Positions 2,069-35,756 of a stretch of DNA of 37,917 nt are shown in pieces (the first letter of the stretch is position 1; every line of letters begins with the position of its first letter). A program made the position numbers and the translations under genes. This DNA comes from Bacilli bacterium (lineage in GTDB: Bacteria > Bacillota_I > Bacilli_A > RFN20 > CAG-826). Under the pieces are notes generated by a model, which made no database searches, had not been told where the DNA came from, and worked only from the letters and a program-made list of their open reading frames with translations. The stretch is taken from the NCBI GenBank assembly GCA_024408295.1, contig JAKSVE010000009.1, forward strand, positions 1 to 37,917. The letters are read 5' to 3'.

Positions 2069-2450
2069 AATAGAGTTCTCCTTCCGTAATTCGATATGTG
2101 AGTTCGTCCGTGTACACATAACCACCGAACTTTGCCTGGAACCAAACGTTAACGGAAGTTGGATAATAGATACCATCATCCTTGAATTCATCGCCGTATT
2201 CTATTTGATAAAGGTATGAGACATGAGGACGATACCTGTCTAAATTCACATCGAAATATTCCCTGATATATTTACTAGTCAGCTTCGTATCAAAATACGG
2301 TCTATACAATGAAACGACATTCACTCCCTCTCTTATGATGACATCATCCAATCCAGTAAATGTTCTATCCACCGCTCCATATAACGTGGAAAAAGAAAAC
2401 ATCGATATGGACGCCATGAAAAGGAGCATTCCAATAAATATGTTCGCCAT
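2061..2450 (-). CDS. small membrane-anchored protein of the Tad-like operon
   Basis: 129 residues. One hydrophobic N-terminal segment (FIGMLLFMASISMFSFSTLY) is followed by a polar, Tyr-rich domain of about 100 residues predicted to be extracytoplasmic. There is no recognisable family. Size, a single N-terminal helix and position directly before the ATPase gene suggest a minor pilin, pseudopilin or TadE-like assembly protein; this is inference from context. The start lies next to the stop of the upstream gene (TAGTATG) with AGAGGA as ribosome site. Confidence 0.6.
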   Translation of the reverse strand: MANIFIGMLLFMASISMFSFSTLYGAVDRTFTGLDDVIIREGVNVVSLYRPYFDTKLTSKYIREYFDVNLDRYRPHVSYLYQIEYGDEFKDDGIYYPTSVNVWFQAKFGGYVYTDELTYRITEGELYYV

Positions 2451-2451
2451 A

Positions 2452-3516
2452 CTATAGTTCCTCTAAGCAGTAATAAGATGTCGAGCAAGAACCAAGCTCA
2501 TTCGAACTCTTGTATAGGTCAAATTTATAGGAGATTGTGTCCACAAGGTTATCTGCACATCCGTTGATCAATATTTCCATTGAGTACTTGTTAACCTCAT
2601 TTGGCATAACTGCTGGGAGATAAACATCATTGGTGAGCAAGTCCCCATCCTTCATGTCCTCCACCGCTTTCATGTCTCTTCCATCGATAGTCACGCCGAC
2701 TGCGTTCTTTAAACCTGGACGCCAAAAACTATCGTATGAATAATGGAATGAAAGAGGGATATCAACCCACCTTCTAATTCCGTCGGTCTTGATAGGCCAA
2801 AGAGGGAATTTTTCAATATGAGAATAAATGCGGAGGCTGATTTCCTTATGCGGCAACACCGAATAATAGCCCAGATAGTTTTTGTACCTTATCAGCATGT
2901 ATTCCAAAGGGATTCTGTTGTATGCCGGGTTGTAAATCTCGCTTTGGAAGCCTCTATGCTCAATCTGGTATGCGGTGTTTTTGAACACTCCATTGCTAAT
3001 GCTGAAACCAGAGAAACCTCCATTAGAGAGATATGCGCTAGAAGGTAGGGAATAATTAACCGGCTTAACAACATCTAGTCTCGTAGATCTCATATATGAT
3101 GATTTCTCCGTGAATGTTGAATCCTTATATTCTTCATTATAGAAATAGAATATGTTTCCCTTATCCGCTATAACTTTTCGAGGGACGACGATATCCATCC
3201 TCTTAGTGGCCCCTATCAATATTCTTTGCTTAGTCCAAGTCGAATCCTTGATGACATATGACCCTGGGTAAGTTGAATCGTTCTGGAAAGACGAAACACT
3301 CTTGGTCAACGAATTGGATAAGACAACATATAGATTGTGATACCCAATTTTGGTGCCCCTAAAAATAAGTGAGAATCTGTAATCGTCTTCCCCGTCAGGT
3401 ATTCCTTTCACCGTTGAATCGACAAACACCCCTGATTCGCCAATCGTTGACGTAGCTCCAATAGTCATTCCACCCGCCAAGAGAGGTATGATTTGGAACA
3501 AAAATTTATACTTCAT
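2452..3516 (-). CDS. secreted protein heading the Tad-like operon
   Basis: 354 residues. The N-terminus (MKYKFLFQIIPLLAGGMTIG) looks like a signal peptide with a basic start and a hydrophobic core. The rest is polar and rich in Ser, Tyr and beta-prone stretches, with Cys residues close to the C-terminus (CSTSYYC). I do not recognise the family. It is the first gene of the operon, with a good ribosome site (AGGAGG) and a conserved promoter motif upstream shared with two toxin-like cassettes. A surface or pilus-associated role is inferred only from the neighbours. Confidence 0.55.
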   Translation of the reverse strand: MKYKFLFQIIPLLAGGMTIGATSTIGESGVFVDSTVKGIPDGEDDYRFSLIFRGTKIGYHNLYVVLSNSLTKSVSSFQNDSTYPGSYVIKDSTWTKQRILIGATKRMDIVVPRKVIADKGNIFYFYNEEYKDSTFTEKSSYMRSTRLDVVKPVNYSLPSSAYLSNGGFSGFSISNGVFKNTAYQIEHRGFQSEIYNPAYNRIPLEYMLIRYKNYLGYYSVLPHKEISLRIYSHIEKFPLWPIKTDGIRRWVDIPLSFHYSYDSFWRPGLKNAVGVTIDGRDMKAVEDMKDGDLLTNDVYLPAVMPNEVNKYSMEILINGCADNLVDTISYKFDLYKSSNELGSCSTSYYCLEEL

Positions 3517-3522
3517 AAAAAG

Positions 3523-3578
3523 TCCTCCTAATACTTACTACCGAGATTTCGGGATTTTTTACCAAAAACTTTTGCAAA
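3523..3578 (-). promoter_or_regulatory. shared upstream motif, copy A (Tad-like operon)
   Basis: Read on the minus strand, the block contains CAAAAGTTTTTGGTAAAAAA, then CCCGA and, about 25 nt later, AGGAGG and the start codon. The core TTGGTAAAAAA, the upstream CAAAA and the distance to AGGAGG recur at 3919-3942 and 19335-19360. It is probably a promoter or activator site for a common regulator or alternative sigma factor. No good sigma-A -10 hexamer sits 17 nt from TTGGTA. Confidence 0.55.
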
Positions 3579-3625
3579 CCGGTCAAAAAACATCACTTTT
3601 TAATAACTTTCTTCCCGGTTTATTG

Positions 3626-3656
3626 AAAAAGGACCATGAATTTAACTCCACGGACC
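3626..3656 (-). terminator. terminator of toxin-like mRNA, cassette 1
   Basis: On the minus strand GGTCCGTGGA and TTCATGGTCC form a 10-bp stem with one U-U mismatch and a 6-nt loop, followed by TTTTT. The equivalent hairpin is conserved at 19026-19057. Confidence 0.6.
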
Positions 3657-3691
3657 TTCTCGGACGCCCTCTCCCCTTAGGGCTAGACCCA

Positions 3692-3720
3692 TTGACTTTG
3701 TCAGTGCCTCAGGGTACTAT
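3692..3720 (+). promoter_or_regulatory. antisense promoter, cassette 1
   Basis: TTGACT, 17 nt, TACTAT: a near-consensus sigma-A promoter pointing against the toxin-like mRNA. The same TTGACT-N17-TACTAT, including most of the spacer, is conserved at 19091-19119. Confidence 0.75.
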
Positions 3721-3726
3721 ATAGAT

Positions 3727-3764
3727 GCTTGTGTCTCGTTGTCTTCGGCCAACGAGCTTTTTTA
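3727..3764 (+). ncRNA. candidate antisense antitoxin RNA, cassette 1
   Basis: Predicted short transcript from the TTGACT/TACTAT promoter to a terminator hairpin CTCGTTG/CAACGAG (3735-3756) followed by six T. It lies entirely opposite the 3' untranslated part of the toxin-like mRNA and ends one base before the toxin stop codon. At about 38 nt it would be very short for a type I antitoxin, so partial read-through into the toxin frame is possible. Confidence 0.5.
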
Positions 3765-3836
3765 TTACTTCTTACGAAGCAAGACGATGAGTGCGATGGC
3801 AAGTGCCATGAGCACTATGATTTCGTCCAAGCGCAT
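3765..3836 (-). CDS. type I toxin-like small hydrophobic peptide, copy 1
   Basis: 23 residues beginning MRLDEIIVLMALAIALIV and ending in a basic RKK tail: one membrane helix with a charged end. AAGGAGG lies directly before the ATG. The peptide has a homologue of identical length at 19179-19250 (shared ...MALAI.LI.L.R.K pattern). Peptides of this form are typical of type I toxins that insert in the inner membrane. The frame overlaps a longer leader frame in another phase, and an opposing promoter sits just downstream. The function is inferred from architecture; no family was recognised. Confidence 0.65.
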   Translation of the reverse strand: MRLDEIIVLMALAIALIVLLRKK

Positions 3837-3879
3837 CCTCCTTCCGGGGAGATTGTCCTAGGTTGACTCTCTTTGACAT
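3772..3879 (-). CDS. leader ORF overlapping toxin-like peptide, copy 1
   Basis: 35 codons from an ATG with a GGAGGG ribosome site. The first residues MSK....G.SP.R are conserved with the leader in the second cassette; the remainder diverges because it overlaps the hydrophobic peptide in another frame. This mok/hok-like arrangement suggests that leader translation controls access to the internal start of the toxin. The leader peptide itself may have no function. Confidence 0.5.
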   Translation of the reverse strand: MSKRVNLGQSPRKEDALGRNHSAHGTCHRTHRLAS

Positions 3880-3918
3880 GAAAAGCCCTCCTACTATATT
3901 ACTAGAGCCAAAATCGGA

Positions 3919-3942
3919 ATTTTTTACCAAGAATTTTTGAAA
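3919..3942 (-). promoter_or_regulatory. shared upstream motif, copy B (toxin-like cassette 1)
   Basis: On the minus strand TTTCAAAAATTCTTGGTAAA... with the core TTGGTAAAAAA, followed by CCGATTTT and, about 20 nt later, AGGAGG. It matches copy A (3554-3578) and copy C (19335-19360). Confidence 0.55.
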
Positions 3943-3980
3943 TATGACGAAAAATTCCTCAAATGGTGCATAATATTGGC

Positions 3981-4517
3981 ATGATTATATTAGTCGGCGC
4001 CTCCGCAAGCGGTAAAACTGAAGTCGCAAAGCAACTTGCTAAGCGATATGGAATAGTAAAAGCAATAACCATCACAACCAGATCGATGAGAGTTGGTGAA
4101 CGTGATGGGGTTGATTACTTCTTTATAACTAAAGAGGAATTCTTAAAGAGGAAAGCCTCCAACAGCTTTGTTGAGACAACTCAATATAATGGCAACTACT
4201 ATGGCTGCTCCAAATCACAGATTGAAGATACCAAGGCAGTCATCGTTGACCCTAATGGATTGAAATCATTCCTCAAGCTCAATAATCCCAGTGTCGTAAC
4301 CTTCTACCTTCACGCTAGCGATGAAGTCAGAGCAAAAAGAATGAGATCACGCGGGGATCTTGAATCATCAATCGCATCTAGACTAGAAGGCGACAAGGTT
4401 GAATTCGCAAAAGAAAAAATAGCCCCTACAGACTTCGTAATCTCAACCGATGATAAGACATTGGATGAGGTAACTGAATTGGTCTATAAGAGCTATATGA
4501 GTAAATTAGGCCGATAA
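3981..4517 (+). CDS. guanylate-kinase-like nucleoside monophosphate kinase
   Basis: 178 residues from the ATG at 3981. P-loop GASASGKTE close to the N-terminus, then TTRSMRVGERDGVDYFF and YNGNYYGCSK. These match the GMP-binding region of guanylate kinases (usual TTR..R.GE.DG.DY.F). Expected to phosphorylate GMP or a related nucleotide; it could be a divergent paralogue rather than the housekeeping enzyme. Start choice: an in-frame ATG also exists at 3963, but neither has a Shine-Dalgarno sequence. A TAATAT hexamer at 3971-3976 would place transcription start at or beside the ATG at 3981, so a leaderless message is likely. The gene converges on the SDR gene, with one stop codon directly next to the other. 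Confidence 0.75.
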   Translation: MIILVGASASGKTEVAKQLAKRYGIVKAITITTRSMRVGERDGVDYFFITKEEFLKRKASNSFVETTQYNGNYYGCSKSQIEDTKAVIVDPNGLKSFLKLNNPSVVTFYLHASDEVRAKRMRSRGDLESSIASRLEGDKVEFAKEKIAPTDFVISTDDKTLDEVTELVYKSYMSKLGR

Positions 4518-7796: not shown

Positions 7797-9974
7797 TTAG
7801 TCTTCGACTGCTTCGTCATCATCAGCTGATGCGACGTAGTTCTTGAGCTCTGCAGCCCAGTCGTTAGCAACGATGTCGCTCTGTTCGAGTGCTTCATTGT
7901 CGCCCTGCTTCTGTGTGCATGCTGTGTCGATGAGTGTCTTTGCTCTCTTGAGTGAGAGTCCGCTCTTAACCTTGAAGCAGCAAGGGATGTCCTTGTACAT
8001 GTTCTTGTTGCTTGCATCGATTACTGGGATTGGTGAATCTGCGTAATCATTTGGGTTTAATGCTAAGTAGAGCTTTAATCCCTTACCTGCGACTGTGATC
8101 TTGCAGTATGTGACACAGCTTAATCTGAATGTGTCGCCTGAGTTGGATAATCTGCTCTTTAATCCGTATGACAAGAGGTAGCTCTTCAATTCGTTGTAGT
8201 TCTTGAGGAGTTCTTCGTCAGCTTCCTGGAAACGCTCTGCGAATGTCTTTCTTTCGTAGACAACTGCTGGAGCAGGTGCTGGTTCTTCTGCTGGAACGAT
8301 GACTTCTTCAACAGGTGCTGGCTCTTCAACTGGAGCTGGCTCTTCAACAGGTGCTGGTTCCTCGACTGGAGCTGGTTCTTCAACTGGCTCTGGTGCTGGA
8401 GCAGCAACAACTAAATCAGCGAGCTTCTTTTCGATTTCTTCTGAAACGATTGCCTTGATCTGTTCTGCTGTGATCATTGATTCAGCGATAGCCTTGATAG
8501 CATCGTTCTGTCTTTCTTCGATGACTCTCTGCTTTTCTTCTGCTTCTTTAGCAGCTGCAGCAGCAGCCTCTGCTTCTGCCTTAGCCTTTGCAGCAGCTTC
8601 TGCGTCCTTTTCTGCCTGAGCAGCATTCTGAGCTGCTAATGCATCGTTGATGACTGAGCGGATATCGTCAAGTGTGATTGCTGGAGCTGGAGCAGGTGCT
8701 GGTTCTTCTTCAACTGGAGCTGGTTCTTCTTCAACGACTGGCTCTTCTTCAACTGGAGCTGGAGTCATAGCCTGAAGTTCTTCGCGGATGATTTCGCGGA
8801 GTTCTTCTGCTGTTAATGATTCGTCTTTGATCTCTTCTTCTTCGACAGGTTCTTCGACTGGTGTTGCACCATCGTAGTACTTGTCTAATTCTTCTTTGAT
8901 GAGAGCGCGAGCTTCGTCATCTGTCATTGGGCGATCGTTCTCTGGGTGATCGTGATCGTCAAGTGCCTCTGCGATGATCTGGCGGAGTTCTTTTGCTGTT
9001 AATGGACGGTTGTCGTCTTCAACTGGTGCTGGAGCAGGTGCTGGCTCTGGTGCTGGAGCAGCTGGCTGTTCTGGATAGTTAACGATAACCTGGACTGGTT
9101 CTTTTGGCTCTGGTGCTGGAGCTGGAGCAGGTGCTGGAGCTGGAGCTGGAGCAGGTGCATAACCGTAAGGAGCATTGTTATAGAAGTTCTGGACAATGAT
9201 TGGTCCTCTTGGTCCGCATGAGACTTCGTTCTGACCAGCATTTGTGAGCTGTTCGTACTGAGCTGCCTTGAGTGCGTCTTCGTCGTCTTTTGTGACAGCC
9301 TTGTCTGCTTCTGTTGGCTCATCGGTGACTTCGCCGAGTTTGCCCTTCTTTGCCTTAGCTGCTTTTTCAGCTTTGGACTTCTTTGCTTTCTTCTTACCAT
9401 TCTTGATAGCGTCTGCTAATGAGATGATTTCGAAGATTAATGAGAATAAGAATGCAAGTCCTGCAAGTCCGAATGGGAGGCAGATCATGATGGTTGCGAG
9501 CCAATCTTTTGATCTGAATGCAGAATATGCAACTCTAATGACTGTGTTTGGAGTTGTGACTGGTCCACCTAAGAAGAAGTATGTGACCATGACCCATGTG
9601 ATGAGTGATACTACCAAGTAGATGATTGAGCACCAAAGAGCGCTTGGACGCTTCTTTGCGCATAATGTGATGAAATGGATGATCCAGAAGACGACAGTGA
9701 ATACTAATGCTGCGCCTAAGATATAAGGAACTCCAAATCTTGATGTGATGCTCCAGTCTGCAGGAGCTGGAACTGGGAGATGGCAAGCGTTAAGAACGAT
9801 CAAGACCGCACCGACGAATGAGCTGAAAACAGCGATCAATGGGTTTGAGCTTCTAACGAAGTCATCAGAGACTGGTGACTTGGCAATGAAAGTTGGCAAG
9901 AACAGTAACAATGCTGCTGCCGCGATTGCAAGGACAAGTGCAACAATCGACAATTTGATTGATGATTTTTTCAT
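7797..9974 (-). CDS. large membrane protein with Ala/Pro/Glu-rich repeats
   Basis: 725 residues. The N-terminal ~190 residues hold about five membrane helices. A Lys/Ala-rich cytoplasmic linker follows, then long AP and EEPAPVEEPAPV repeats separated by five copies of an amphipathic motif like LTAEELREIIREEL (RPLTAKELRQIIAEAL, RPMTDDEARALIKEEL, SLTAEELREIIREELQ, AITLDDIRSVINDAL, MITAEQIKAIVSEEI). The C-terminal ~120 residues form a compact domain (FAERFQEADEELLKNYNELK ... LKLYLALNP). I recall this domain from hypothetical proteins of gut Bacillota; its function is unknown. Possibly a membrane-anchored scaffold or cell-shape protein. The start has GAGAGGATATAACT upstream, and TTTAAA-N17-TACAAT is its promoter. 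Confidence 0.75.
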   Translation of the reverse strand: MKKSSIKLSIVALVLAIAAAALLLFLPTFIAKSPVSDDFVRSSNPLIAVFSSFVGAVLIVLNACHLPVPAPADWSITSRFGVPYILGAALVFTVVFWIIHFITLCAKKRPSALWCSIIYLVVSLITWVMVTYFFLGGPVTTPNTVIRVAYSAFRSKDWLATIMICLPFGLAGLAFLFSLIFEIISLADAIKNGKKKAKKSKAEKAAKAKKGKLGEVTDEPTEADKAVTKDDEDALKAAQYEQLTNAGQNEVSCGPRGPIIVQNFYNNAPYGYAPAPAPAPAPAPAPAPEPKEPVQVIVNYPEQPAAPAPEPAPAPAPVEDDNRPLTAKELRQIIAEALDDHDHPENDRPMTDDEARALIKEELDKYYDGATPVEEPVEEEEIKDESLTAEELREIIREELQAMTPAPVEEEPVVEEEPAPVEEEPAPAPAPAITLDDIRSVINDALAAQNAAQAEKDAEAAAKAKAEAEAAAAAAKEAEEKQRVIEERQNDAIKAIAESMITAEQIKAIVSEEIEKKLADLVVAAPAPEPVEEPAPVEEPAPVEEPAPVEEPAPVEEVIVPAEEPAPAPAVVYERKTFAERFQEADEELLKNYNELKSYLLSYGLKSRLSNSGDTFRLSCVTYCKITVAGKGLKLYLALNPNDYADSPIPVIDASNKNMYKDIPCCFKVKSGLSLKRAKTLIDTACTQKQGDNEALEQSDIVANDWAAELKNYVASADDDEAVED

Positions 9975-21536: not shown

Positions 21537-23033
21537 TTATTTAATTATCCTATGGTTTCCGTTCTCGTAGGAAGGTTCAATTAAGCCTTCGCTTTCTAAT
21601 CTTTTAACTATCCTGTTGGCCTTTGTGAAGCTGACGTTCATCTCTTCCTGGATGAATGATGTTGAAATGACATCTAAAGTAGGAAGATATGACTTAACGT
21701 TATCATAGATAACATCATTCTTTGAAGCTCCAACAATCTTGGATAATTGTTCTTTTGAAAGCCTCCTCTTTACCTTCAGCTGACTTACGACGGCATCGAA
21801 TAGATTCATATTCGCCATAATCAATCTTTCTGCCGTGTCCGATGCTTCTTTCAATATCGCACTCTTGTAGTTTTTCTGTTCAAGGGTTTCTTGAGGTTTC
21901 TGCTTCATGAACGTTGGCCCGTCTGCATCTTTAACGTAGAAAAGATCATATCCATCCACTCCACTTGATGCGACTTCCTCGGCCAATGCTATAGCGCGTG
22001 TTATATCGCTTCTAGAACCAGTTGAGCAATCTCCGTTCATCTTTATCTTTTCAGCAACGTTTCCTGCTAGTAAAACGGCGATTTCCTTCTTGATATTGCT
22101 TACTAGTCCACGAACTTCCTCCGATTCCTCTTCTTCCCCATCGTCGTACTCATTCACATGCGCTCCTTTTACATCACCATACTGTTCAACGGTGAGGGAG
22201 CCAATATTTCCAGTTAATAGATAACTGACAAGGAAGTGTCCTGCTTCATGTACACAGACGAATTCAGGAACTGCTGCTTTATTCTTTTTTATTTCCTGGA
22301 ATCGAACAACAGGGATTATCTTATCAAAATCTTCTAAAGTGATATCCGACTTGCCATTGCTTAAGCAATCAATGAGGGTTTCGTTTACCAATGTCTTGAT
22401 ATCAGCACCGGAGAATCCGCCGAGTCTAGAGGATAACTCAATTGTTGAAATGCCATCAAAAATCGCATTCTTTCTCAAATAATAATTGGTGATTTCGTAA
22501 CGTGATTTCGCATCAGGAATAGGCATGTTGATCTTCTTGTCCATCCTGCCGCTTCTAGTTAAGGCATAAGGTAATTCTTCTTTGAAATTCGTTGTAACGA
22601 TAACCAAAACTCCTTCATTGGAATTAATGCCATCTATCTCTGTTAAAAGTACCTTCAAAGTTTTTCTAGAAGAATCTGACATGAACGTTCTAGATGTGAC
22701 AAATTCATCAACTTCATCAATAAAAACAATACTTGGCGCGTTATTACGTGCTTTTGCAAAAATCATTCTTATCTCGTCTATCGTGTTATCTTCATCGCTC
22801 ATTCCTTTGCATTCTAATTCAAAAAACGGAACACCCGATTCATTCGCAATAGCCTTTGCTAAGCTTGTCTTTCCTGTCCCGCATGGTCCCGAGAGCACAA
22901 GTCCTTTTGATATATATGCGCCCATGGACTTGAATTTGTCATAGTTCTTGAGGACGTTGATTATCTTCCTCGCTTCTTCTTTTTGATCATCGTAACCAGC
23001 GATGTCTTCTAGTGTGATTCTATTTTCCATCAT
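21537..23033 (-). CDS. soluble FtsH-like AAA+/M41 protease with winged-helix tail
   Basis: 498 residues. An AAA+ domain (Walker A GPCGTGKT at 49-56, Walker B IVFIDEVDE at 102-110, a modified Arg-finger region ALTRSGRMDKK) leads into an M41 peptidase domain (HEAGH at 262-266, third zinc ligand Asp343 in GSRSDITRAIALAEE). A C-terminal ~55-residue winged-helix-like domain resembling FtsK gamma follows (ISTSFIQEEMNVSFTKANRI). There are no membrane helices, unlike true FtsH. The pore-loop Phe-Val-Gly expected after Walker A is absent (ECKGMSDEDNTID). A second M41 protein lies at 27798-29042. It probably degrades or remodels a specific partner and may bind DNA through its tail. Confidence 0.85.
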   Translation of the reverse strand: MMENRITLEDIAGYDDQKEEARKIINVLKNYDKFKSMGAYISKGLVLSGPCGTGKTSLAKAIANESGVPFFELECKGMSDEDNTIDEIRMIFAKARNNAPSIVFIDEVDEFVTSRTFMSDSSRKTLKVLLTEIDGINSNEGVLVIVTTNFKEELPYALTRSGRMDKKINMPIPDAKSRYEITNYYLRKNAIFDGISTIELSSRLGGFSGADIKTLVNETLIDCLSNGKSDITLEDFDKIIPVVRFQEIKKNKAAVPEFVCVHEAGHFLVSYLLTGNIGSLTVEQYGDVKGAHVNEYDDGEEEESEEVRGLVSNIKKEIAVLLAGNVAEKIKMNGDCSTGSRSDITRAIALAEEVASSGVDGYDLFYVKDADGPTFMKQKPQETLEQKNYKSAILKEASDTAERLIMANMNLFDAVVSQLKVKRRLSKEQLSKIVGASKNDVIYDNVKSYLPTLDVISTSFIQEEMNVSFTKANRIVKRLESEGLIEPSYENGNHRIIK

Positions 23034-23063: not shown

Positions 23064-23124
23064 ATTCTATTTGAATTCAATGAATATATAAGGCTTTGGA
23101 CCCCTATTTGTCGCAGATGTGAGA
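23064..23124 (-). promoter_or_regulatory. AAA-DraG-XRE operon promoter with island operator 2
   Basis: Operator at 23111-23124 (TCGCAGATGTGAGA on plus). On the minus strand CTTATA, 17 nt, TAGAAT (23064-23069) follows. The operator centre is about -60.5 from the inferred start at 23057. Confidence 0.6.
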
Positions 23125-23142
23125 AAAGCTAGATCAAGCACG

Positions 23143-23287: not shown

Positions 23288-23349
23288 ACTATATTCCAAT
23301 TATTGTGTATGTAAATAGCTTCTGGGAGAGTTAGTCGCAAAGATGAGAA
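23288..23349 (-). promoter_or_regulatory. sRNA promoter with island operator 3
   Basis: Operator at 23335-23349 (TCGCA-AAAGA-TGAGA, 5-nt spacer). The promoter TTTACA-N16-TATAGT is on the minus strand; the centre is about -61 from the inferred start at 23281. Confidence 0.6.
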
Positions 23350-23386
23350 ACGCTTATCAAAATAGGGTCAAAACATTTGATTGAAT

Positions 23387-23457
23387 CGCACTTTTGCGAA
23401 TATATCGGTTTTTACTCAAAAAGGTTTTGATTTTCAGGAATCGTTTGTTATATACTC
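23387..23457 (+). promoter_or_regulatory. promoter of the 200-residue gene with island operator 4
   Basis: Perfect operator TCGCACTTTTGCGA at 23387-23400, then TTGATT (23428-23433) and TATACT (23452-23457). The centre is about -70.5, one helical turn further than the -61 sites. The leader of ~150 nt contains a CGGAT/ATCCG hairpin (around 23518-23534). Confidence 0.6.
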
Positions 23458-23615
23458 TTGCCCACATCGCTTCACCAACCCCCATCGATGGAGGCGTGAT
23501 CCCTGTACATAATGTCCGGATTTAGTTATCCGACACACCCGTTCTTTGACAACTCGCTTTATTCAAACCACCTTTTTAAATCTTCTAATTAAAAAGAAAA
23601 GAGGTATTTACAAAA

Positions 23616-24218
23616 ATGATCAATTTTGAATACATCCACTCCTTAATCAATGATAAGGAAAAACAGAATGAGCCATTAAGACACGGATCTGATAAAGGCG
23701 CAGCCTTCATAAGATGCGAGATCTTGAAGGCTCACTTCGTCTCAAAGGCTCTTGGGCTCACTCAAGAATCCAAAAAACTCTTAAAAGCCTATAACGACTA
23801 CTTCGCCCATTTGGGCTACACCGGAAACTGCATCGACGTCATCAAAAGGAAATTCCTTGGAGATGAATGCGAGCAGCTATTCAAACCTCTCCAGCAATAC
23901 GGCATCTTATCATTCAAAAAGATGCTTAAGCATGTCGAAACAGAGGAACTTTCAAACCTAGATAGCAGATTTGACATCCATGAATTGGCAAATCAAAACA
24001 ATCCAAGCATCTACACGGTTTCTTTCTTAAGAAGCGTGTTGGACATAACCATAGGAAAGAAGGATTTCGACAAATCCACAATAGGAGATTGTTACATCTC
24101 AATCGGCACAATAGACACAACCCCAACATATGATGGAAAACCTTTCTATCATCTAGTCACAAGACATGTTGACTCCACGAGCGAAATAGCATACAAAGTC
24201 TATAAAAAATATAGATAA
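23616..24218 (+). CDS. unrecognised 200-residue protein upstream of the large ncRNA
   Basis: 200 residues, soluble, no signal peptide or membrane helix, Lys-rich. Segments such as KRKFLGDECEQLFKPLQQYG and FYHLVTRHVDSTSEIAYKVY give no family I recognise. Ribosome site AGAGG about 11 nt before the ATG. It is the only larger gene on the plus strand in the island. It is followed after 10 nt by an island operator and the promoter of a ~670-nt structured RNA, with no terminator in between, so its message may run into that RNA. A protein partner of the RNA is one possibility, purely from position. Confidence 0.65.
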   Translation: MINFEYIHSLINDKEKQNEPLRHGSDKGAAFIRCEILKAHFVSKALGLTQESKKLLKAYNDYFAHLGYTGNCIDVIKRKFLGDECEQLFKPLQQYGILSFKKMLKHVETEELSNLDSRFDIHELANQNNPSIYTVSFLRSVLDITIGKKDFDKSTIGDCYISIGTIDTTPTYDGKPFYHLVTRHVDSTSEIAYKVYKKYR

Positions 24219-24228
24219 CGCATGAGTT

Positions 24229-24290
24229 TCGCATAAATGCGACAACGGGTAGCAGGCGGCTTGAAATAGAAGATTGAGCGAGCCTATAAT
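24229..24290 (+). promoter_or_regulatory. large ncRNA promoter with island operator 5
   Basis: Perfect operator TCGCATAAATGCGA at 24229-24242, then TTGAAA (24261-24266), 18 nt, TATAAT (24285-24290). The inferred start is about 24297 and the operator centre -61.5. Confidence 0.7.
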
Positions 24291-24296
24291 CTCATC

Positions 24297-24967
24297 ACTT
24301 CCAAAACCACACCACACGGTGATGGGTTGGAATCGCAAGGGGCTTAGATGCCCCAAGCGAATTGCTCTTTGAAAATTTATTTCCATGAAGTCACACCACA
24401 ACCAGGTGAAGACATCTTGTACGATGGCCTGGACCTATCCGTGGATGAAAAGCGCATTGGGATACTGATGCGTAATAAAGACCCTGAAGTAATGAAAGGG
24501 TTCACCTCGATTGGCTAATCGGGGCTGGGATAGTTGTGCATCGCGTTGACTAAGTATAAGTAGATATCGATAAGTTCGGGCGACAAGAAGCTCTGCAGCA
24601 ATGCATCTCGCCTGAGGATACGTGCCTGAGAAACACGTGATCCCGGCTCTCAAGGGAAGCCTTTGACTTGATGTCCAGCAATGGGCTATAAGAACGTAAG
24701 ATAGTGCGAGTAGCCGTATGTCAGATTAGCTATTTTTTGGAAGAAAAACATGATGATCTGAAGCTCGGTGAAAGTTGGGAGGTATTGGTCCTTCCTTAGG
24801 TTCGTCGAAAGACCATTCAAGAAGTTATGGGGTAGCTCCTCATGATTCAGACTTGGGTGCTAATGCTATGAATAATGCTTGTCAGTAAGTGGTTGTATGG
24901 CGAAGGTCAGTGTGCGATTTCGTGGAAGTAAATTTTAGAGTTTAAGGCGGATTTACCGCCTTTTTTC
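24297..24967 (+). ncRNA. large structured non-coding RNA (~670 nt)
   Basis: Bounded by a good promoter (TTGAAA/TATAAT) and a strong terminator (GGCGG-ATTTA-CCGCC-TTTTTT). No credible reading frame on either strand. Many local helices are visible: TTCCAA/TTGGAA (24299/24327); TCGC..GGGGC/GCCCC..GCGA (24333-24360); CCAGG/CCTGG around AAGA/TCTT; CCTCGATT/AATCGGGG (24505-24524); TGCA-GCAA-TGCA with a GNRA loop (24594-24605) inside GGGCGA/TCGCCT; GGATACGTG/CACGTGATCC (24616-24643); TGGTC/GACCA; ATGGGG/CCTCAT (24827-24843). Size, complexity and a rumen/gut-like host recall the ROOL/GOLLD class of giant RNAs, but I could not confirm a match. No adjacent tRNAs. Confidence 0.72.
24944..24967 (+). terminator. 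large ncRNA terminator
   Basis: AAGGCGG-ATTTA-CCGCCTT stem-loop followed by a run of six T. Confidence 0.8.
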
Positions 24968-24989
24968 TTTATTTTTGTAGGTAAAATGC

Positions 24990-25018
24990 AAAAGAAAAGA
25001 GCATCACATGATGCTCTT
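24990..25018 (-). terminator. HTH gene terminator
   Basis: AAGAGCATCA/TGATGCTCTT stem read on the minus strand, followed by TTTCTTTT. It contains the stop codon of the gene. Confidence 0.7.
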
Positions 25019-25210
25019 GACGCTCTGGCCAGTCTTAGCTTCATACAAAGCGACCAACATGACCATTGCCTGTCCAGACGGCTTAGCCTGGCAGTTTTGC
25101 CAACGATACACTGTACCGTCGTCGACACCCAAGTATCTTGCGATCTCCTGGATAGTCATTGTGCCAACGATGCCGTTGAACAACCTTTTGATGAATCTGT
25201 TAAAATCCAT
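25004..25210 (-). CDS. small helix-turn-helix protein (68 residues)
   Basis: 68 residues from the ATG at 25210 (GGAGGTAACTACA upstream). Most of the protein is one helix-turn-helix: MTIQEIARYLGVDDGTVYRW followed by QNCQAKPSGQAMVMLVALYE. It is a stand-alone DNA-binding domain of XRE/MerR-like type, without a sensor part. A TTGGTAACCAA palindrome between promoter and start suggests autoregulation. An island operator lies at -71.5. It sits next to the large ncRNA, transcribed toward it, with two separate terminators between. It may be an auxiliary regulator of the island. Confidence 0.8.
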   Translation of the reverse strand: MDFNRFIKRLFNGIVGTMTIQEIARYLGVDDGTVYRWQNCQAKPSGQAMVMLVALYEAKTGQSVKSIM

Positions 25211-25242
25211 TGTAGTTACCTCCTTAACATTCCCGTAAGTAC

Positions 25243-25263: not shown

Positions 25264-25335
25264 TATTATATACGCTGAAGAAGGAATTTAAAGGGGAATT
25301 TTTGGGATTTTCGAGAGGTTGTCGCAAACATGCGA
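25264..25335 (-). promoter_or_regulatory. HTH gene promoter with island operator 6
   Basis: Perfect operator TCGCAAACATGCGA at 25322-25335. On the minus strand TTTAAA, 16 nt, TATAAT (25264-25269). The operator centre is about -71.5. Confidence 0.65.
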
Positions 25336-25612
25336 AATGGCATAGTTCTAAGTAATCCGAAATATGGTCGGGAGATTTGATTTATAAGAAAAACATCCAC
25401 CGTTTCATAGTGCACTGTTGATAGCGAGGGTAAATTTGACTGAAGTGGCATGACTTCCCGATGAAATCATCATATCTCCATATTTTCACTCAATCATTGC
25501 ACTTTTCACTTAAATTGACATAGAGTTAGGAGATTTGCCTGTTGGCAGGAGATAAAAAGAGTGATTGTTACTGAATTACCTAATATAACTCCCCCATTAG
25601 AACGTCCCATCC
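25336..25612. other. intergenic stretch without a recognised gene
   Basis: AT-rich. A GTG with AGGAGA upstream at 25562 opens a 29-codon frame that runs antisense into the AAA_13 gene; I do not regard it as a gene. No terminator for the AAA_13 gene was identified here. Confidence 0.4.
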
Positions 25613-27715
25613 TTAAATCCTGTTCATCACTTCATCGCATTTCTGGATAAGGTGAGCAGGGATGGTATCGAATTGCCCGTCATCGAGAACCGAGGTCGTG
25701 TCGTTGTCGATATGGTATGTTTCGGTGATGTATTTCCACATGATCGCGCCTAACTCCAAGGAACCGTAATGTTTCTGAACGTAGAAGCGAATGATTTCTA
25801 GTTTCTCTAAGCTAGTTGTTGAAGGGTTGAAGTAATCAGCCTTGAGTTGCGTATCGGTTAATGAATTAATCCAAGGTTTGTAATCAAAGTCTCCAAAGCC
25901 CGGTTCTTCGTTGATCTTCTCTTGGATGGACATGTAGTCATCAATTAATTGATGATGATAATCCTTCGGAGACAAATCTCCATGCAAGAACGAGGAGACA
26001 AGCTCGTATTTATCCGAGAAGGACTCTCCGATGAGTTCCAAGTATCTTCTGTAGTGAAGGAGCCTGCAGATTTTAGGTCTAGAAGCATCCGAGAACTTCT
26101 CCTTCTCATATCTGGTTCTGAGCATGAATGAATTTCTCTCAACCAAAGTTTCTGTGACTCGCTCTCCGTCGTTTCTAAGATATTTAGCTTCAACGCAGTG
26201 ATAATAGACCATTTTAAGAAGGTCTTGCTTGATGAGGTCCACAACGATTGCAAAGTCATGAGTGACCATAAGGACTGTCTTGCCTCTAAGGTTATCTACA
26301 CCATAAGCGAACAACTGATGCAACAATGCATACTTCTTGTTGTTGTCAAAGCTTGAAATAGGGTCATCTAAAACGATGAGGTCGTGGCTAGAGCTCTTAG
26401 CATCAAGAGAGAACAACAAGAGAGATAAAGCGTTCTTCTCGCCATAGCTCAAGCAGTCAGCAATATTATCTGGCGCATCTTCTGTATTGGCTGGCTTGAG
26501 GATTGTTTTATATCCTGCATCGCTTTCCTCGACGACAATGCGGTAAGGCATACCGGCAATGTCCAAGAAATCGTTGATATATGCTGAGTTTCTATTGATG
26601 TTGTCTCTGGTGATATTGTTTAATTCCTGCAAATCAGCGCTTAAATTGGTTGTTGCATTGATTACGACATCCAAAGCGTCGTTGAAACGATCGACCTCAG
26701 CCAATGCATCCAGGCTTGCATCCATTAAGCTGAATAATCCCGATGTGTTCAATTTTGAATCCCTGAGATTATCCAATAAGGTGTTGTCTAAGACACTCTC
26801 AACGAGCTCTTTGTATTTCGTGTCTCTAAGTTTTGAAATCTTCACGGCTTCTTCAGCTAAAGCGCGATAGTCGCCCATGATGTGTTCAACCTGCCCTCTA
26901 TTTAAAATCTCGCCCGAACCAATCCAGGAGTTGATGAGGTTTCTTTCATCCTCCGGGAGATACTTCGTGAGCTTTTCGAAGTACTTCAAGGATTCCATTA
27001 ACTTCTTCATCGGAGAGGCTGTCATAGCAGAGTTGATCTCTTGCTGGAAGCTATCGATTTCTTCTGAGATTGCAGTCCCACAGTATGGGCAGTCTCCTTC
27101 ATCGTCCACATACTCTGCGCCTTCTTCAAACCAATCGCTCCACTTTGCTGCGGTATCAACCGATGTTAAGTGTTTCTTAAGCGGGTTGTCATTATGGATT
27201 GTGGCGATTGAATATCCTCTGGATATGCCAGATCCAACTTTTCCTTTCCCCTGAAAGAGTCCTGTCTTGGCGTGGATTTTTGCTTCTCTACCGAAATCTT
27301 GGATATCGCTGACGAAGTTAAGAAGGAACTCACTGTTATCAAGAATGGAGAGTACGGCATTCAACTTATTTCTGATCGCTTCTTCTCTTGCGGTATAGTC
27401 ATTGGTCTTGACGATGATTTCGAAGGTGTTCCTCAATGTATCGTTCTTCTGGAATAAGTTCTTCTCGACATAAGCATCATTAAAGATATAGACATCATTG
27501 ATTGGCTCGCTGAAAGTAACGCTTGGAGTAAGGTCGCTTCCGAATGGAGTCAAGTCCTCCATATCTTCGCCTGCTGCATAGGCCGCAATGGCTTTCGTGA
27601 TGCTGGTCTTACCAGTTCCGTTGTTTCCGTATTTGACGTTTAAGTAGTTCTTTCTTAAAGAAAGCTCAGCGTGTTTGACATTGCAAACATTGTCGATTGT
27701 TATAGTGATGCTCAT
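25613..27715 (-). CDS. AAA_13/RloC-like ATPase with zinc-hook CPYC
   Basis: 700 residues. SMC/RecF-type ATPase: Walker A GNNGTGKT (30-37), signature LSYGEKNAL (422-430), Walker B LIVLDDPISSFD (446-457), His switch MVTHD (483-487), flanking a coiled-coil region with a zinc-hook-like CPYC (209-212). After the ATPase core come R556-x3-E560 and H578, loosely like the Arg-Glu-His triad of PrrC/RloC anticodon nucleases, though the Glu-His spacing is shorter than I expect. The family is linked to phage defence (tRNA cleavage on DNA damage). Start: TATAAT ends 9 nt before the ATG, so the leader would be about 3 nt. No island operator upstream. Confidence 0.75.
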   Translation of the reverse strand: MSITITIDNVCNVKHAELSLRKNYLNVKYGNNGTGKTSITKAIAAYAAGEDMEDLTPFGSDLTPSVTFSEPINDVYIFNDAYVEKNLFQKNDTLRNTFEIIVKTNDYTAREEAIRNKLNAVLSILDNSEFLLNFVSDIQDFGREAKIHAKTGLFQGKGKVGSGISRGYSIATIHNDNPLKKHLTSVDTAAKWSDWFEEGAEYVDDEGDCPYCGTAISEEIDSFQQEINSAMTASPMKKLMESLKYFEKLTKYLPEDERNLINSWIGSGEILNRGQVEHIMGDYRALAEEAVKISKLRDTKYKELVESVLDNTLLDNLRDSKLNTSGLFSLMDASLDALAEVDRFNDALDVVINATTNLSADLQELNNITRDNINRNSAYINDFLDIAGMPYRIVVEESDAGYKTILKPANTEDAPDNIADCLSYGEKNALSLLLFSLDAKSSSHDLIVLDDPISSFDNNKKYALLHQLFAYGVDNLRGKTVLMVTHDFAIVVDLIKQDLLKMVYYHCVEAKYLRNDGERVTETLVERNSFMLRTRYEKEKFSDASRPKICRLLHYRRYLELIGESFSDKYELVSSFLHGDLSPKDYHHQLIDDYMSIQEKINEEPGFGDFDYKPWINSLTDTQLKADYFNPSTTSLEKLEIIRFYVQKHYGSLELGAIMWKYITETYHIDNDTTSVLDDGQFDTIPAHLIQKCDEVMNRI

Positions 27716-29075: not shown

Positions 29076-29165
29076 TATATACACCTCTATGCGCGGTATG
29101 TTTAGCGATCTGGATGTGGTATTCTCATGCTTGCGACAAAATAGTCAAAAGTCGCATTTTTGCAA
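29076..29165 (-). promoter_or_regulatory. second AAA/M41 promoter with tandem island operators 7a/7b
   Basis: Two sites: 29123-29136 (minus TCGCA-AGCA-TGAGA, centre about -60.5) and 29152-29165 (minus TTGCA-AAAA-TGCGA, centre about -89.5). Then ATCGCTAAACAT (29098-29109) supplies a TAAACA -35, 17 nt, TATATA. The 12-mer ATCGCTAAACAT recurs at the same distance at operator 8. Confidence 0.65.
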
Positions 29166-30392: not shown

Positions 30393-31094
30393 TTAGTCGG
30401 ATGTCTCAGAATGGTCATCTTCATAAAATAGATTTCCGATCGATGAATTGAGCGGATCGAATCCTGCTTCTGATGCCGGCGCGGTAAGGATGTAGGTCTT
30501 GCCGGATTCGTCTCTGCACATGACGTGGTAGATAGTATATTCCGGGAAACCTCCCCAACCATGTCTCTCGCATAAGTCGAATCTGACAAATGGGGCGTAA
30601 TTGAATGCTTCGATAACACGCTCGTTTTCATTCTCGTCGAGGAATGATTCCAACGGACCGCGTAGGACGGGTTCAGCCTTAAAGGAAACTTGGTAATTAG
30701 GGCTGTATTCTCTATGAATCTGTTCATTGCGAATAAGAATGTCTCTAGAGACGTAATAGTCCTGCTCTCCCACTGAAAGTGCGATGGAGCGAGAAATGGC
30801 TAGAACCTCTGCATGACTATCCCTGATTTTGTCGTATAGAACAGCCGCGAAGTATTGCGTGATTTTGCCGAGGTCTGTCTTGTTGCCTGCGAATTGGAGG
30901 AAGTCCTCTTTGATGGTGAAATCCCCGCTTTCTAAGACCTTATCAACCCATTGATAGATTGGTAAGTCCTCGCCTGAGGAACCGCGAAAGAGAGTCAAGG
31001 CAAAACGTGTGAGTTCGTCGTCTTTCTCGTAATGGCAATCGAATGCGGCATTGATGACGTCGGTGATGTGTTTGTTTAATAAGAATTCGTACAT
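30393..31094 (-). CDS. unrecognised 233-residue protein heading the sigma-4 operon
   Basis: 233 residues, acidic, soluble. Segments include ITDVINAAFDCHYEKDDELTR and GGFPEYTIYHVMCRDESGKTY. No family recognised and no signal peptide. GGGGGA precedes the start. The operon promoter carries island operator 8. Confidence 0.6.
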   Translation of the reverse strand: MYEFLLNKHITDVINAAFDCHYEKDDELTRFALTLFRGSSGEDLPIYQWVDKVLESGDFTIKEDFLQFAGNKTDLGKITQYFAAVLYDKIRDSHAEVLAISRSIALSVGEQDYYVSRDILIRNEQIHREYSPNYQVSFKAEPVLRGPLESFLDENENERVIEAFNYAPFVRFDLCERHGWGGFPEYTIYHVMCRDESGKTYILTAPASEAGFDPLNSSIGNLFYEDDHSETSD

Positions 31095-31126: not shown

Positions 31127-31187
31127 AATATATGCGCTTGACATATGGATGTTTAGCGATTGGCGCCCATAAATCGCAAGGCTGCGA
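31127..31187 (-). promoter_or_regulatory. sigma-4 operon promoter with island operator 8
   Basis: Perfect operator TCGCAAGGCTGCGA at 31174-31187. On the minus strand ATCGCTAAACAT (31149-31160) gives a TAAACA -35, 17 nt, TATATT (31127-31132). The centre is about -60.5. Layout is identical to operator 7a. Confidence 0.65.
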
Positions 31188-31235
31188 ATTACATGCGATT
31201 TTTTTTGGATAATGCGCATAGCGCGTTGCGTGTGC

Positions 31236-33440: not shown

Positions 33441-33473
33441 AAAAGCCTCTCGTTTAAAACGGGAGGCATTTTT
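33441..33473 (+). terminator. channel gene terminator, possibly bidirectional with hipA
   Basis: GCCTCTCGTTT pairs with AAACGGGAGGC and is followed by ATTTTTATT. The reverse strand ends in TTTTAAC, so weak bidirectional action is possible. Confidence 0.7.
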
Positions 33474-34698
33474 ATTTCCCAAAAGCAGGTGTCATATATT
33501 CAATTGCTTTTTCGCTAGCGCCACATCTTCTAGCAATCGTTTTCCACGATGATGAGATAATAGAAGACGTCTCATCAACAATGTCTCGTGCAGTCTTTTC
33601 ATCAATTCCGAATGCAAACGACACCGCAATAGCAGAATCCAAATTCAATGAATTGTCCACCCCATCTATCGTCATAGATAAATACATACCATCCGGATTT
33701 GGATTAACATCAAATAAAGGCGATAAAACCCATCCGTTTTTCATCAATAAGAAGCCATGGTTTCTCAAATGGTCATCAGTATTTTTCACTAGAATCGAGA
33801 ACACAATTCTTTTGAATAATTCAACCAAATCGGCTTCGACATTGCAGCCGTTAGATCTGATAAAGTCTGCCAAATCAAGATAGGAACACTCCGATGATTC
33901 GCCATCCGTTTTGTCTAACAAGCACATCGATGATGCGAAATGAATTCTCTTTTTGCCATTGCGATCGAATCTTTTCACCAAGAAGGTGCTTCCTCTTTCA
34001 GAAAACTTCAGAATCTTTGATGGCATTGTGTTTAGCCCACATAATCTAGCTAATTCATAGGTGACGTATTCAAACAAACCGCTATCCCACTCGTCGTGCT
34101 TCGAAGGAAATTTTGCAATCCATAAAGAGCCATCCAGATCAACTACGTTCGCCTTTGGTCTAGCACCGCCTAAAGACGATCCTGGCGTCAATAAAAGAGA
34201 AATCCATTTTTCATCTAGGAAATTTTCATCTTTCTCATATTCGGAAGCCGCATATTCGATATCTCTTAGTTTTTCTATTGGGGGAGCAGACATATTTTTT
34301 TCGTCCGAGATGAATTTTCCTCCCTTTTCTAGAGAAAATCTGATGGCTCCGAGTCGCGAGTAATCATCAACGCCAAGAAGATAGTCGCTTTCTCTCAATG
34401 GGGTTTTATCCCCAGCAGAGAGTCTTCTTCTGTTCATCAACATCCTGCCCCAGCGGTCAGGTGCTGAATCCATGAAAACGCCGAATTGCTTCTTCTCACC
34501 ATCAACATATTGAGGTCCAGAAAAGTATTCCAAATTTGGATCTATACGGGGGATTCTGTTGTTTCTTAACCATGCATTATCATATATAAAAGAACACACT
34601 TCTGTGCCTCTAATCCCTTGAATACGTAATTCTCCCATTAAAGATGGTTCATTGGAGAAAAACTCTTCATATACATAAACGATTTTGTTTTCTGCCAT
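33472..34698 (-). CDS. hipA: HipA-family serine/threonine kinase toxin
   Basis: 408 residues, full length for the family. An N-terminal HipA_N region (FSNEPSLMGELRIQGIRG) precedes the kinase-like domain: a Gly-rich SSLGGARPKA loop, Lys in LWIAKFPS, FLVKRFDR, catalytic NTDDHLRNHGFLL, and metal-binding LSPLFDVNP. HipA enzymes phosphorylate glutamyl-tRNA synthetase or other targets and cause growth arrest until neutralised by HipB. The start follows the stop of hipB directly (TAAATG). No truncation is visible. Confidence 0.92.
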   Translation of the reverse strand: MAENKIVYVYEEFFSNEPSLMGELRIQGIRGTEVCSFIYDNAWLRNNRIPRIDPNLEYFSGPQYVDGEKKQFGVFMDSAPDRWGRMLMNRRRLSAGDKTPLRESDYLLGVDDYSRLGAIRFSLEKGGKFISDEKNMSAPPIEKLRDIEYAASEYEKDENFLDEKWISLLLTPGSSLGGARPKANVVDLDGSLWIAKFPSKHDEWDSGLFEYVTYELARLCGLNTMPSKILKFSERGSTFLVKRFDRNGKKRIHFASSMCLLDKTDGESSECSYLDLADFIRSNGCNVEADLVELFKRIVFSILVKNTDDHLRNHGFLLMKNGWVLSPLFDVNPNPDGMYLSMTIDGVDNSLNLDSAIAVSFAFGIDEKTARDIVDETSSIISSSWKTIARRCGASEKAIEYMTPAFGK

Positions 34699-35004
34699 TT
34701 ATTTAACCCTCTTTGGAATCGCTATATCTAAATCCTGGAGCTTTCTGCCCAAAACGTCATCTTTTGCAACCAATAGCAAATCCTTATCCATCCCGTTTAG
34801 AGCGTGAAGCACCATCGCATAATATCCAATTGCAACATTAGGCGAACCTTTTTCAATCGCCCAAACAGTTGCCCTGCTGACACCTGCTCTTTCTGCAGCC
34901 AAGCTAGCTGAAATGCGTCTACGCAATCTAGCCATCTTGATTTGTTCGCCCAGTGTCTTCAATATCTCGCCAGTCTTTGGCATCACCATCATCTTACGTT
35001 GCAT
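34699..35004 (-). CDS. hipB: HipB-family XRE antitoxin
   Basis: 101 residues from the ATG at 35004. A Cro/C1 helix-turn-helix (LGEQIKMARLRRRISASLAA, then ERAGVSRATVWAIEKG) is followed by a short tail that would contact HipA. The start is preferred because GAGG is 7 nt upstream and the promoter lies just before it; a longer frame would include the promoter. Binds its own operator and represses hipBA. Confidence 0.9.
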   Translation of the reverse strand: MQRKMMVMPKTGEILKTLGEQIKMARLRRRISASLAAERAGVSRATVWAIEKGSPNVAIGYYAMVLHALNGMDKDLLLVAKDDVLGRKLQDLDIAIPKRVK

Positions 35005-35014
35005 ACTTATACCT

Positions 35015-35071
35015 CTAACATTCGATACTATAAACATTTTTGCGCATTTTGTCAAAAGTATCGAACATTAG
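35015..35071 (-). promoter_or_regulatory. hipBA promoter and operator
   Basis: On the minus strand TTGACA, 17 nt, TATAGT (35027-35055). A long inverted repeat, CTAACATTCGATACT (35015-35029) and AGTATCGAACATTAG (35057-35071), frames the promoter, with 13 of 15 positions matching. Confidence 0.85.
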
Positions 35072-35094: not shown

Positions 35095-35514
35095 TTAGAT
35101 AATTTCCAATAGTTCTGATGGCTGAATAGCCTCAACGACATGATGAAGAAACTTTCCTTTATCTTTAGTTAGGATTTTATATATACCATTGTTATAGGCA
35201 GAGGCTACCAATACGTTATCCTCAAAATCCTCTCCCGCGAAAAACATTGCATGCTCTATTTCTAGACATGTAAGATCCACAACGTTAAACAATGAAATAA
35301 TCTTGTTTAAAGCAGCCATTCTCTTATCCTTTGGCAAATACTTGCGGAGAACATAATGAATGTCGGTTATCTGTTTCGATGATAGATATCCTTCGATTTC
35401 TTGTTCGGCCATTTTATAAAAACAGGCAAGAGAATCATCGGAGCCGGTTCTTTTGGTTAATATATCGATGATTATATTTGAGTCGAACAAAACTTTAAGC
35501 TTATCCTCTTTCAT
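35095..35514 (-). CDS. PIN-domain toxin (VapC-like)
   Basis: 139 residues from the ATG at 35514 (GGAG 9 nt upstream). PIN-domain acidic residues are visible: LFDSNIIIDIL at the N-terminus, an Asp in ITDIHYVL, and the GEDFEDNVLVASAYNNG segment, then LTKDKG. PIN toxins are Mg2+-dependent RNases. The start overlaps the antitoxin gene by 14 nt. Confidence 0.9.
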   Translation of the reverse strand: MKEDKLKVLFDSNIIIDILTKRTGSDDSLACFYKMAEQEIEGYLSSKQITDIHYVLRKYLPKDKRMAALNKIISLFNVVDLTCLEIEHAMFFAGEDFEDNVLVASAYNNGIYKILTKDKGKFLHHVVEAIQPSELLEII

Positions 35515-35710
35515 CTTCGTCTTCTCCAATGGTTGCTCCTGCCGGGAGAATGCCGACCAAAGATTTGGCGTCTTCCATCCTTTTAACTTTCCCCGGAACG
35601 GTGGTGAACACAACCTTTCCGAAGCTTGTAACAACGATTTCTTCGCTCTTGGCAAGTTCCATATATTTGCCAAAATGAGTCTTAAATTCTGTAGCGGTTA
35701 TAATGCACAT
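35501..35710 (-). CDS. Phd/YefM-family antitoxin
   Basis: 69 residues from the ATG at 35710 (GAGG 5 nt upstream). ITATEFKTHFGKYMELAKSE is the typical Phd/YefM N-terminus, followed by IVVTSFGKVVFTTVP and an acidic, probably disordered tail (GEDEDERG). Neutralises the PIN toxin and autorepresses. Confidence 0.88.
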   Translation of the reverse strand: MCIITATEFKTHFGKYMELAKSEEIVVTSFGKVVFTTVPGKVKRMEDAKSLVGILPAGATIGEDEDERG

Positions 35711-35717
35711 AAATACC

Positions 35718-35756
35718 TCGCACATAGATTCTATATAAATCGCACATACTTTTCAA
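35718..35756 (-). promoter_or_regulatory. phd-pin promoter and operator repeats
   Basis: On the minus strand TTGAAA, 17 nt, TAGAAT. Two direct repeats TATGTGCGA (35718-35726 and 35740-35748, 22 bp apart) lie around the -10 and are likely antitoxin binding sites. Confidence 0.7.

Follow-up and report, generated by a model that had tools for sequence, protein, structure and literature searches.

A stretch of about 670 nt at positions 24297-24967 of a Bacilli contig raises two questions: to which family does the structured RNA that it appears to encode belong, and what determines when that RNA is made? The stretch lies within a DNA of 37,917 nt, hereafter called the window. The original prediction saw a giant RNA, either ROOL/GOLLD-like or of a new class, driven by an operator of the surrounding island. 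ROOLs are a family of giant bacterial RNAs that rank among the largest structured RNAs and form hollow cages wider than a ribosome; we know of no function for them. The window RNA is a new member of this known family, and what is unusual and informative about it is its regulatory wiring together with the boxA in its leader.

The family assignment comes from a covariance-model search of the window, in which positions 24378-24927 (+ strand) matched ROOL (Rfam RF03087) over its full length (model positions 1-574) and scored 201 bits (cut-off 99.1, E 4.5e-44). ROOL was the only Rfam family to pass its gathering score anywhere in the window, which at this threshold rules out GOLLD, OLE and HEARO; within 24200-25050 none of these three matched up to E 1 either. 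The ROOL half of the prediction is thereby borne out, while its GOLLD alternative finds no match at gathering score and the option of a new class falls away. A promoter and a terminator enclose the RNA as predicted, and the expected extent corresponds to the model core plus a leader, counted from the predicted start, and a tail with terminator. The gene, single-copy in its own assembly (G000; 1.02 Mb, 64% complete), has the following parts:

24261-24290, + strand: σ70-like promoter TTGAAA-18-TATAAT, matching the consensus at 11 of 12 positions
~24297, + strand: transcription start, predicted from the promoter
24297-24377, + strand: leader, upstream of the covariance-model core
24378-24927, + strand: ROOL RNA core, full length, from the covariance model
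24727-24757, + strand: variable linker (approximate), from the model alignment and comparison with PMC12286853
24928-24967, + strand: tail and terminator, downstream of the core
24944-24972, + strand: intrinsic terminator, with a stem at 24944-24962 followed by T's

The conserved core motifs of the family, namely GGGATACT, GTGAAAGTT, GGTAGCTCC, CAGACTT and GGCGAAGG, are all present. The window RNA thus resembles known ROOLs, among them those with solved cages (E. faecalis, L. salivarius and env-120), in its full-length covariance match, its length of ~550 nt, its variable linker and its core motifs. In the solved structures the variable linker is the part that is disordered within the cage, and intermolecular bridges (e.g. 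kissing loop B4) and a homo-oligomeric cage are known for these other ROOLs (PMC12286853); by analogy, the window RNA would form a cage as well.

Does the locus act as RNA or as a peptide gene? The three helices named in the original prediction are all present in the sequence: a GNRA hairpin at 24594-24605 (TGCA-GCAA-TGCA), whose loop is kept and whose stem varies in relatives; an 8-bp stem at 24505-24524 (CCTCGATT..AATCGGGG, including one T-G pair); and a 9-bp stem with one bulged G at 24616-24643 (GGAT.ACGTG..CACGT.G.ATCC). When the family structure is mapped onto the window RNA, 118 of the 146 pairs present are standard. Covariation in the window's own 73%-identical homologue from a second genome, G036, supports the ROOL helices: 98 of the 117 pairs scored are conserved, against a mean of 88.5 and a maximum of 97 in 5000 shuffles, and ten show compensatory changes affecting both partners (shuffles: mean 3.3, maximum 10). 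As to coding potential, the overlapping 56-aa ORF at 24348-24518 carries 11, 8 and 12 differences on codon positions 1, 2 and 3, and its changed codons are synonymous in 3 cases and non-synonymous in 16, in agreement with the earlier statement that the region has no credible reading frame. We considered whether this ORF might encode a conserved peptide of the 5' domain, as the frame is open in both G000 and G036a (a ROOL of G036) with look-alike residues, and rejected this because the substitutions are not codon-like. Pair conservation and compensation, together with codon counts free of coding signal, identify the ROOL locus as an RNA and not a peptide gene.

The ROOL gene sits between 19 and 31 kb in an island whose order is a VWA-like gene, an unknown protein, an ADP-ribosylglycohydrolase, AAA-M41 protease 1, a 200-aa protein, ROOL, a small HTH protein, an AAA_13/PDC-S06 ATPase and AAA-M41 protease 2. 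The genes closest to the RNA are:

21537-23033, - strand: AAA-M41 gene 1, an FtsH-like AAA+ protease with an FtsK-gamma-type winged helix
23616-24218, + strand: 200-aa protein of unassigned function, upstream of ROOL
25004-25213, - strand: small HTH protein, with similar small ORFs in the G036 island
25613-27715, - strand: AAA_13/PDC-S06 candidate defence ATPase, 700 aa
27798-29042, - strand: AAA-M41 gene 2, a second FtsH-like AAA+ protease

Contig C171 of G036 carries a partly rearranged version of the same island, with AAA_13, small HTH-like ORFs, ROOL, AAA-M41 and a VWA-like gene next to the same aconitase flank. Another contig of that genome (L289, G036:C11) bears, at 1562-3788, an ADP-ribosylglycohydrolase and AAA-M41 pair as in the window, with no ROOL in the contig. 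A second G036 ROOL (L012, G036:C184) has in its vicinity a sigma-70-like protein gene (3487-4164) and an AAA_13/PDC-S06 homologue.

There are no tRNA genes within the window, and none of the ten proteins encoded at 19.4-30.1 kb around ROOL is clearly a phage structural or integration protein. The setting is a chromosomal island and unlike that of a phage, which distinguishes the locus from the ROOL family at large, solved-cage members included, as does an activator-type site held in common with protease genes. Since ROOLs outside prophages have been reported (PMC12191101), location in a phage or tRNA island does not define the family. A comparable case is the ROOL lncRNA on the megaplasmid of L. 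salivarius UCC118 (PMC5643018), likewise outside a phage tRNA array and with a small HTH gene downstream; however, the window ROOL is only 36% identical to it, the L. salivarius neighbors are unrelated to the window island, and its ROOL has no clear boxA.

Among relatives, ROOL is patchily distributed, occurring in 8 of the 61 genomes searched and in 5 of 37 within the genus. In a rough tree of 29 ROOLs, the window sequence is closest to G036a (74% identity), followed by viral ROOLs (59-60%) and the other chromosomal ROOLs of the order (56-58%). ROOL was located in 21 viral contigs by means of a specific DNA pattern, and Rfam confirmed every one; an earlier, looser pattern was unspecific, with none of the few loci checked being ROOL, and blastn with a viral ROOL query gave no match in phages or plasmids. 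At 18 of the 21 viral loci, tRNA genes lie within a few kb, often many and in a few cases just one; the stretches examined of the other three (L327, L332, of which 1.6 kb only, and L341) have none.

What, then, switches on the window gene? The "island operator" of the original prediction exists, as a palindromic site at 24225-24246 upstream of the ROOL promoter that recurs in the island:

23107-23128, unstranded: site copy upstream of AAA-M41 gene 1, with a weak promoter at -60.5
23331-23352, unstranded: site copy, -60.5 of a leftward promoter TTTACA-16-TATAGT (10/12) towards AAA-M41 gene 1
23382-23403, unstranded: site copy, -70.5 of TTGATT-18-TATACT, the promoter of the 200-aa gene
24225-24246, unstranded: site with core TCGCA-N4-TGCGA, a predicted class I activator site, centered at -61.5 of the ROOL promoter (11/12)
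25318-25339, unstranded: site copy, -70.5 of TTTAAA-16-TATAAT (10/12), the promoter of the HTH gene
29119-29140, unstranded: site copy upstream of AAA-M41 gene 2
31170-31191, unstranded: site copy, -60.5 of TAAACA-17-TATATT, upstream of a 233-aa gene (30393-31094)

Five of these are strong palindromes (23107, 23331, 24225, 25318 and 29119). The G036 island holds four copies, one of which, upstream of its ROOL, shares an exact 20-mer with the window site at 25318; spacing there is -60.5 at both the ROOL promoter (10/12) and the promoter of the HTH ORFs (10/12). The claim that ROOL belongs to the regulon of the island therefore stands, on site copies in both islands, while the type of operator changes, as the -60/-61 spacing points to an activator; the island part of the regulon comes from two genomes, G000 and G036. 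In G000 the core TCKCANNNNTGMGA occurs at 15 sites, 8 of them within the window, whereas its reversed control occurs at 3; in G028, a complete relative without ROOL, the counts are 5 and 2, and the best promoter scores 8/12.

Class I activators, as at CRP-type promoters, act from a site centered at -61.5. Nine sites were compared with the promoters around them, the motif used to select these sites having been derived from the window. Seven have a promoter scoring 8/12 or more at -59.5 to -62.5 (background 4%, p 6.6e-9) and four have one scoring 10/12 or more (p 2.3e-9), while 2000 random positions of G028 gave no promoter of at least 10/12 at the site spacing. Like class I sites, that of the window is two-fold symmetric and centered at -60/-61 or, roughly one turn of the helix farther out, at -70.5. 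Two sites are not exact fits to -60: that at 25318 lies at -70.5, and that at 29119 is paired with a -10 box minus its final T. The core corresponds, to our knowledge, to neither the CRP nor the FNR consensus. Because symmetric sites stand at a fixed -60/-61 from several σ70-like promoters far above chance, we read the palindrome as a putative class I activator site and not as a repressor operator; the small HTH protein (25004-25213) is a candidate regulator acting on it.

Two of the seven G000 sites outside the window have a strong promoter at -59.5. One precedes the tmRNA gene (ARAGORN, L372 1590-1993), whose promoter is TTGATA-16-TATAAT (11/12), so that tmRNA probably shares the activator-type site of ROOL; this link comes from one genome, G000, as the tmRNA of G036 was not among the contigs examined, and no site was found upstream of the tmRNA in G028. 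The other precedes a helicase-like gene (ResIII/SNF2 match), behind which lie two genes that are MoxR-like by sight, and a look-alike helicase gene in G036 is also preceded by a site at a similar distance.

The same palindrome could instead be a phage-type repressor operator, ROOL being the remnant of a mobile element silenced by the small HTH protein. Such a history would suit an HTH gene under its own site and a ROOL whose nearest relatives outside chromosomes are viral, but the site lies ~15 bp upstream of the -35 box and not over the promoter, its -60/-61 spacing recurs at several promoters, a strong copy precedes tmRNA, an improbable target for repression, and the ten proteins around ROOL include no clear phage structural or integration gene. 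We consider repression unlikely and retain the activator as the preferred reading of the site.

Once started, how would such a long untranslated RNA be transcribed to its end? The ROOL leader contains a motif of ribosomal RNA operons:

24363-24375, + strand: rRNA-type boxA TGCTCTTTGAAAA in the ROOL leader, the motif being as in the rrn boxA of the genus

In three genomes of the genus (L344, L345 and L346), the rrn operons carry GATCTTTGAAAACT ~100 nt before 16S and TGTTCTTTGAAAAC ~120 nt after it, and it is this rrn-leader motif of the lineage that lies inside the ROOL transcript leader. Of 22 non-redundant ROOLs (<80% identity, viral ones included), 11 carry TYCTTTGANAA, with no more than one mismatch, around the 5' end (1.7% expected for each, p 2.3e-14), and 6 carry an exact copy (p 1.2e-12); these p values overstate independence because ROOLs share ancestry. 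The hits are confined in position: of the 60-nt bins from -400 to +739, that at -40..+19 contains 11 and every other 0-2. Carriers fall in at least three branches of the rough ROOL tree; boxA is absent from the ROOLs of G011, G021 and G029 and from several viral ones. Within the family, the leader boxA is a further distinguishing feature of the window RNA, though one that recurs in roughly half the ROOLs compared. A second boxA-like sequence, GTTCTTTGACAA, lies at 23542-23552 in the leader of the 200-aa gene, downstream of TTGATT-18-TATACT.

Alternatively, the motif might serve the structure or the processing of the ROOL 5' end, for instance as part of a variable first helix, and it does overlap the first model positions in v335, v337, G059 and G038; it is, however, clear of the model start in the window, G036, v160 and v340, and in sequence it is the boxA of the lineage's rrn operons, one mismatch at most from GYTCTTTAANA, the published gammaproteobacterial consensus (PMC5725501). 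We consider such a structural or processing role unlikely. The boxA of rRNA operons and suhB-type transcripts is the same 10-13-nt motif in a transcript leader, in a survey that left out non-coding RNAs (PMC5725501); the window transcript differs in being a non-ribosomal structured RNA for which antitermination is predicted. In the part of the literature covered by our search, we found no paper that discusses boxA and ROOL together. We infer that the leader boxA serves as a NusB-S10 antitermination element.

Taken as a whole, the locus is probably a chromosomal ROOL gene with an activator site, a σ70-type promoter and a leader boxA for antitermination, and with a cage-forming product. An activator bound in class I position at -61.5, presumably encoded by the island and with the small HTH protein as candidate, would switch ROOL, and would serve AAA-M41 protease and HTH genes through the same site as well as the helicase operon and probably tmRNA elsewhere in the genome. 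The σ70-type promoter would start the transcript, boxA would load the Nus (NusB-S10) antitermination complex so that transcription of this long, structured and untranslated RNA runs to completion, and the product would self-assemble into a homo-oligomeric cage, as solved ROOLs do. A common site wiring ROOL to AAA+ proteases, a helicase operon and probably tmRNA offers a concrete lead on when, and with what, ROOL acts. A boxA in several ROOL branches, phages included, would explain how a long RNA is transcribed to its end; boxA alone does not account for the rRNA-like levels of ROOL in L. salivarius, where the RNA has no clear boxA.

These partners suggest a role of ROOL in the response to translation or proteostasis stress. 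A more specific version, which we put forward tentatively, is a translation-stress regulon in which the island activator would turn on ROOL, tmRNA for ribosome rescue and FtsH-like AAA+ proteases for removal of tagged products, with ROOL made like rRNA via boxA antitermination. On this view, the targets of the ROOL cages would be stalled ribosomes, tRNAs or their products. Kretsch et al. have speculated that a ribosomal subunit could be enclosed in a cage; if ROOL is regulated together with tmRNA and FtsH-like proteases, this would agree with their idea without proving it.

That ROOL is instead tied functionally to the PDC-S06/AAA_13 ATPase as an anti-phage module is quite unlikely, for although three of the four strong ATPase homologues in the 61 relatives searched lie within ~3 kb of a ROOL, five more distant PDC-S06 genes of the order (~26-33% identical to the window protein) have no ROOL in the stretches examined, and at six further ROOL loci of the order no PDC-S06 neighbor appears in the stretches seen. 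On account of these distant genes, a general PDC-S06-ROOL tie across the order was rejected. No relatives of the window PDC-S06 protein were found in phages or viral contigs.

Several further features were noted around ROOLs. In viral tRNA arrays with ROOL, short Rfam tmRNA matches of 81-83 nt occur in L331 (1391-1471) and L224 (2471-2553), the latter 38 nt upstream of ROOL; both are possibly odd tRNAs. The viral ROOL contig L225 has a weak partial OLE match at 2050-2137 (53.4 bits against a cut-off of 50). In G011, G021 and G029, a protein of ~325-328 aa without Pfam or NCBIfam match divergently adjoins ROOL (L015 10393-11379, L016 10381-11355 and L017 ~8573-9736), and its strong homologues within the genus are restricted to these three ROOL carriers. 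About 3 kb from the ROOL of G029, L017 13189-19999 combines a repeat array translating as repeated RLAEPFSRGRN with genes that are cas2/cas1/cas9-like by sight, a probable CRISPR-Cas locus. In the window itself, inspection by sight revealed a HipA-like gene with an HTH partner at 33472-35055 and a PIN-domain-like toxin with an antitoxin-like partner at 35095-35725.
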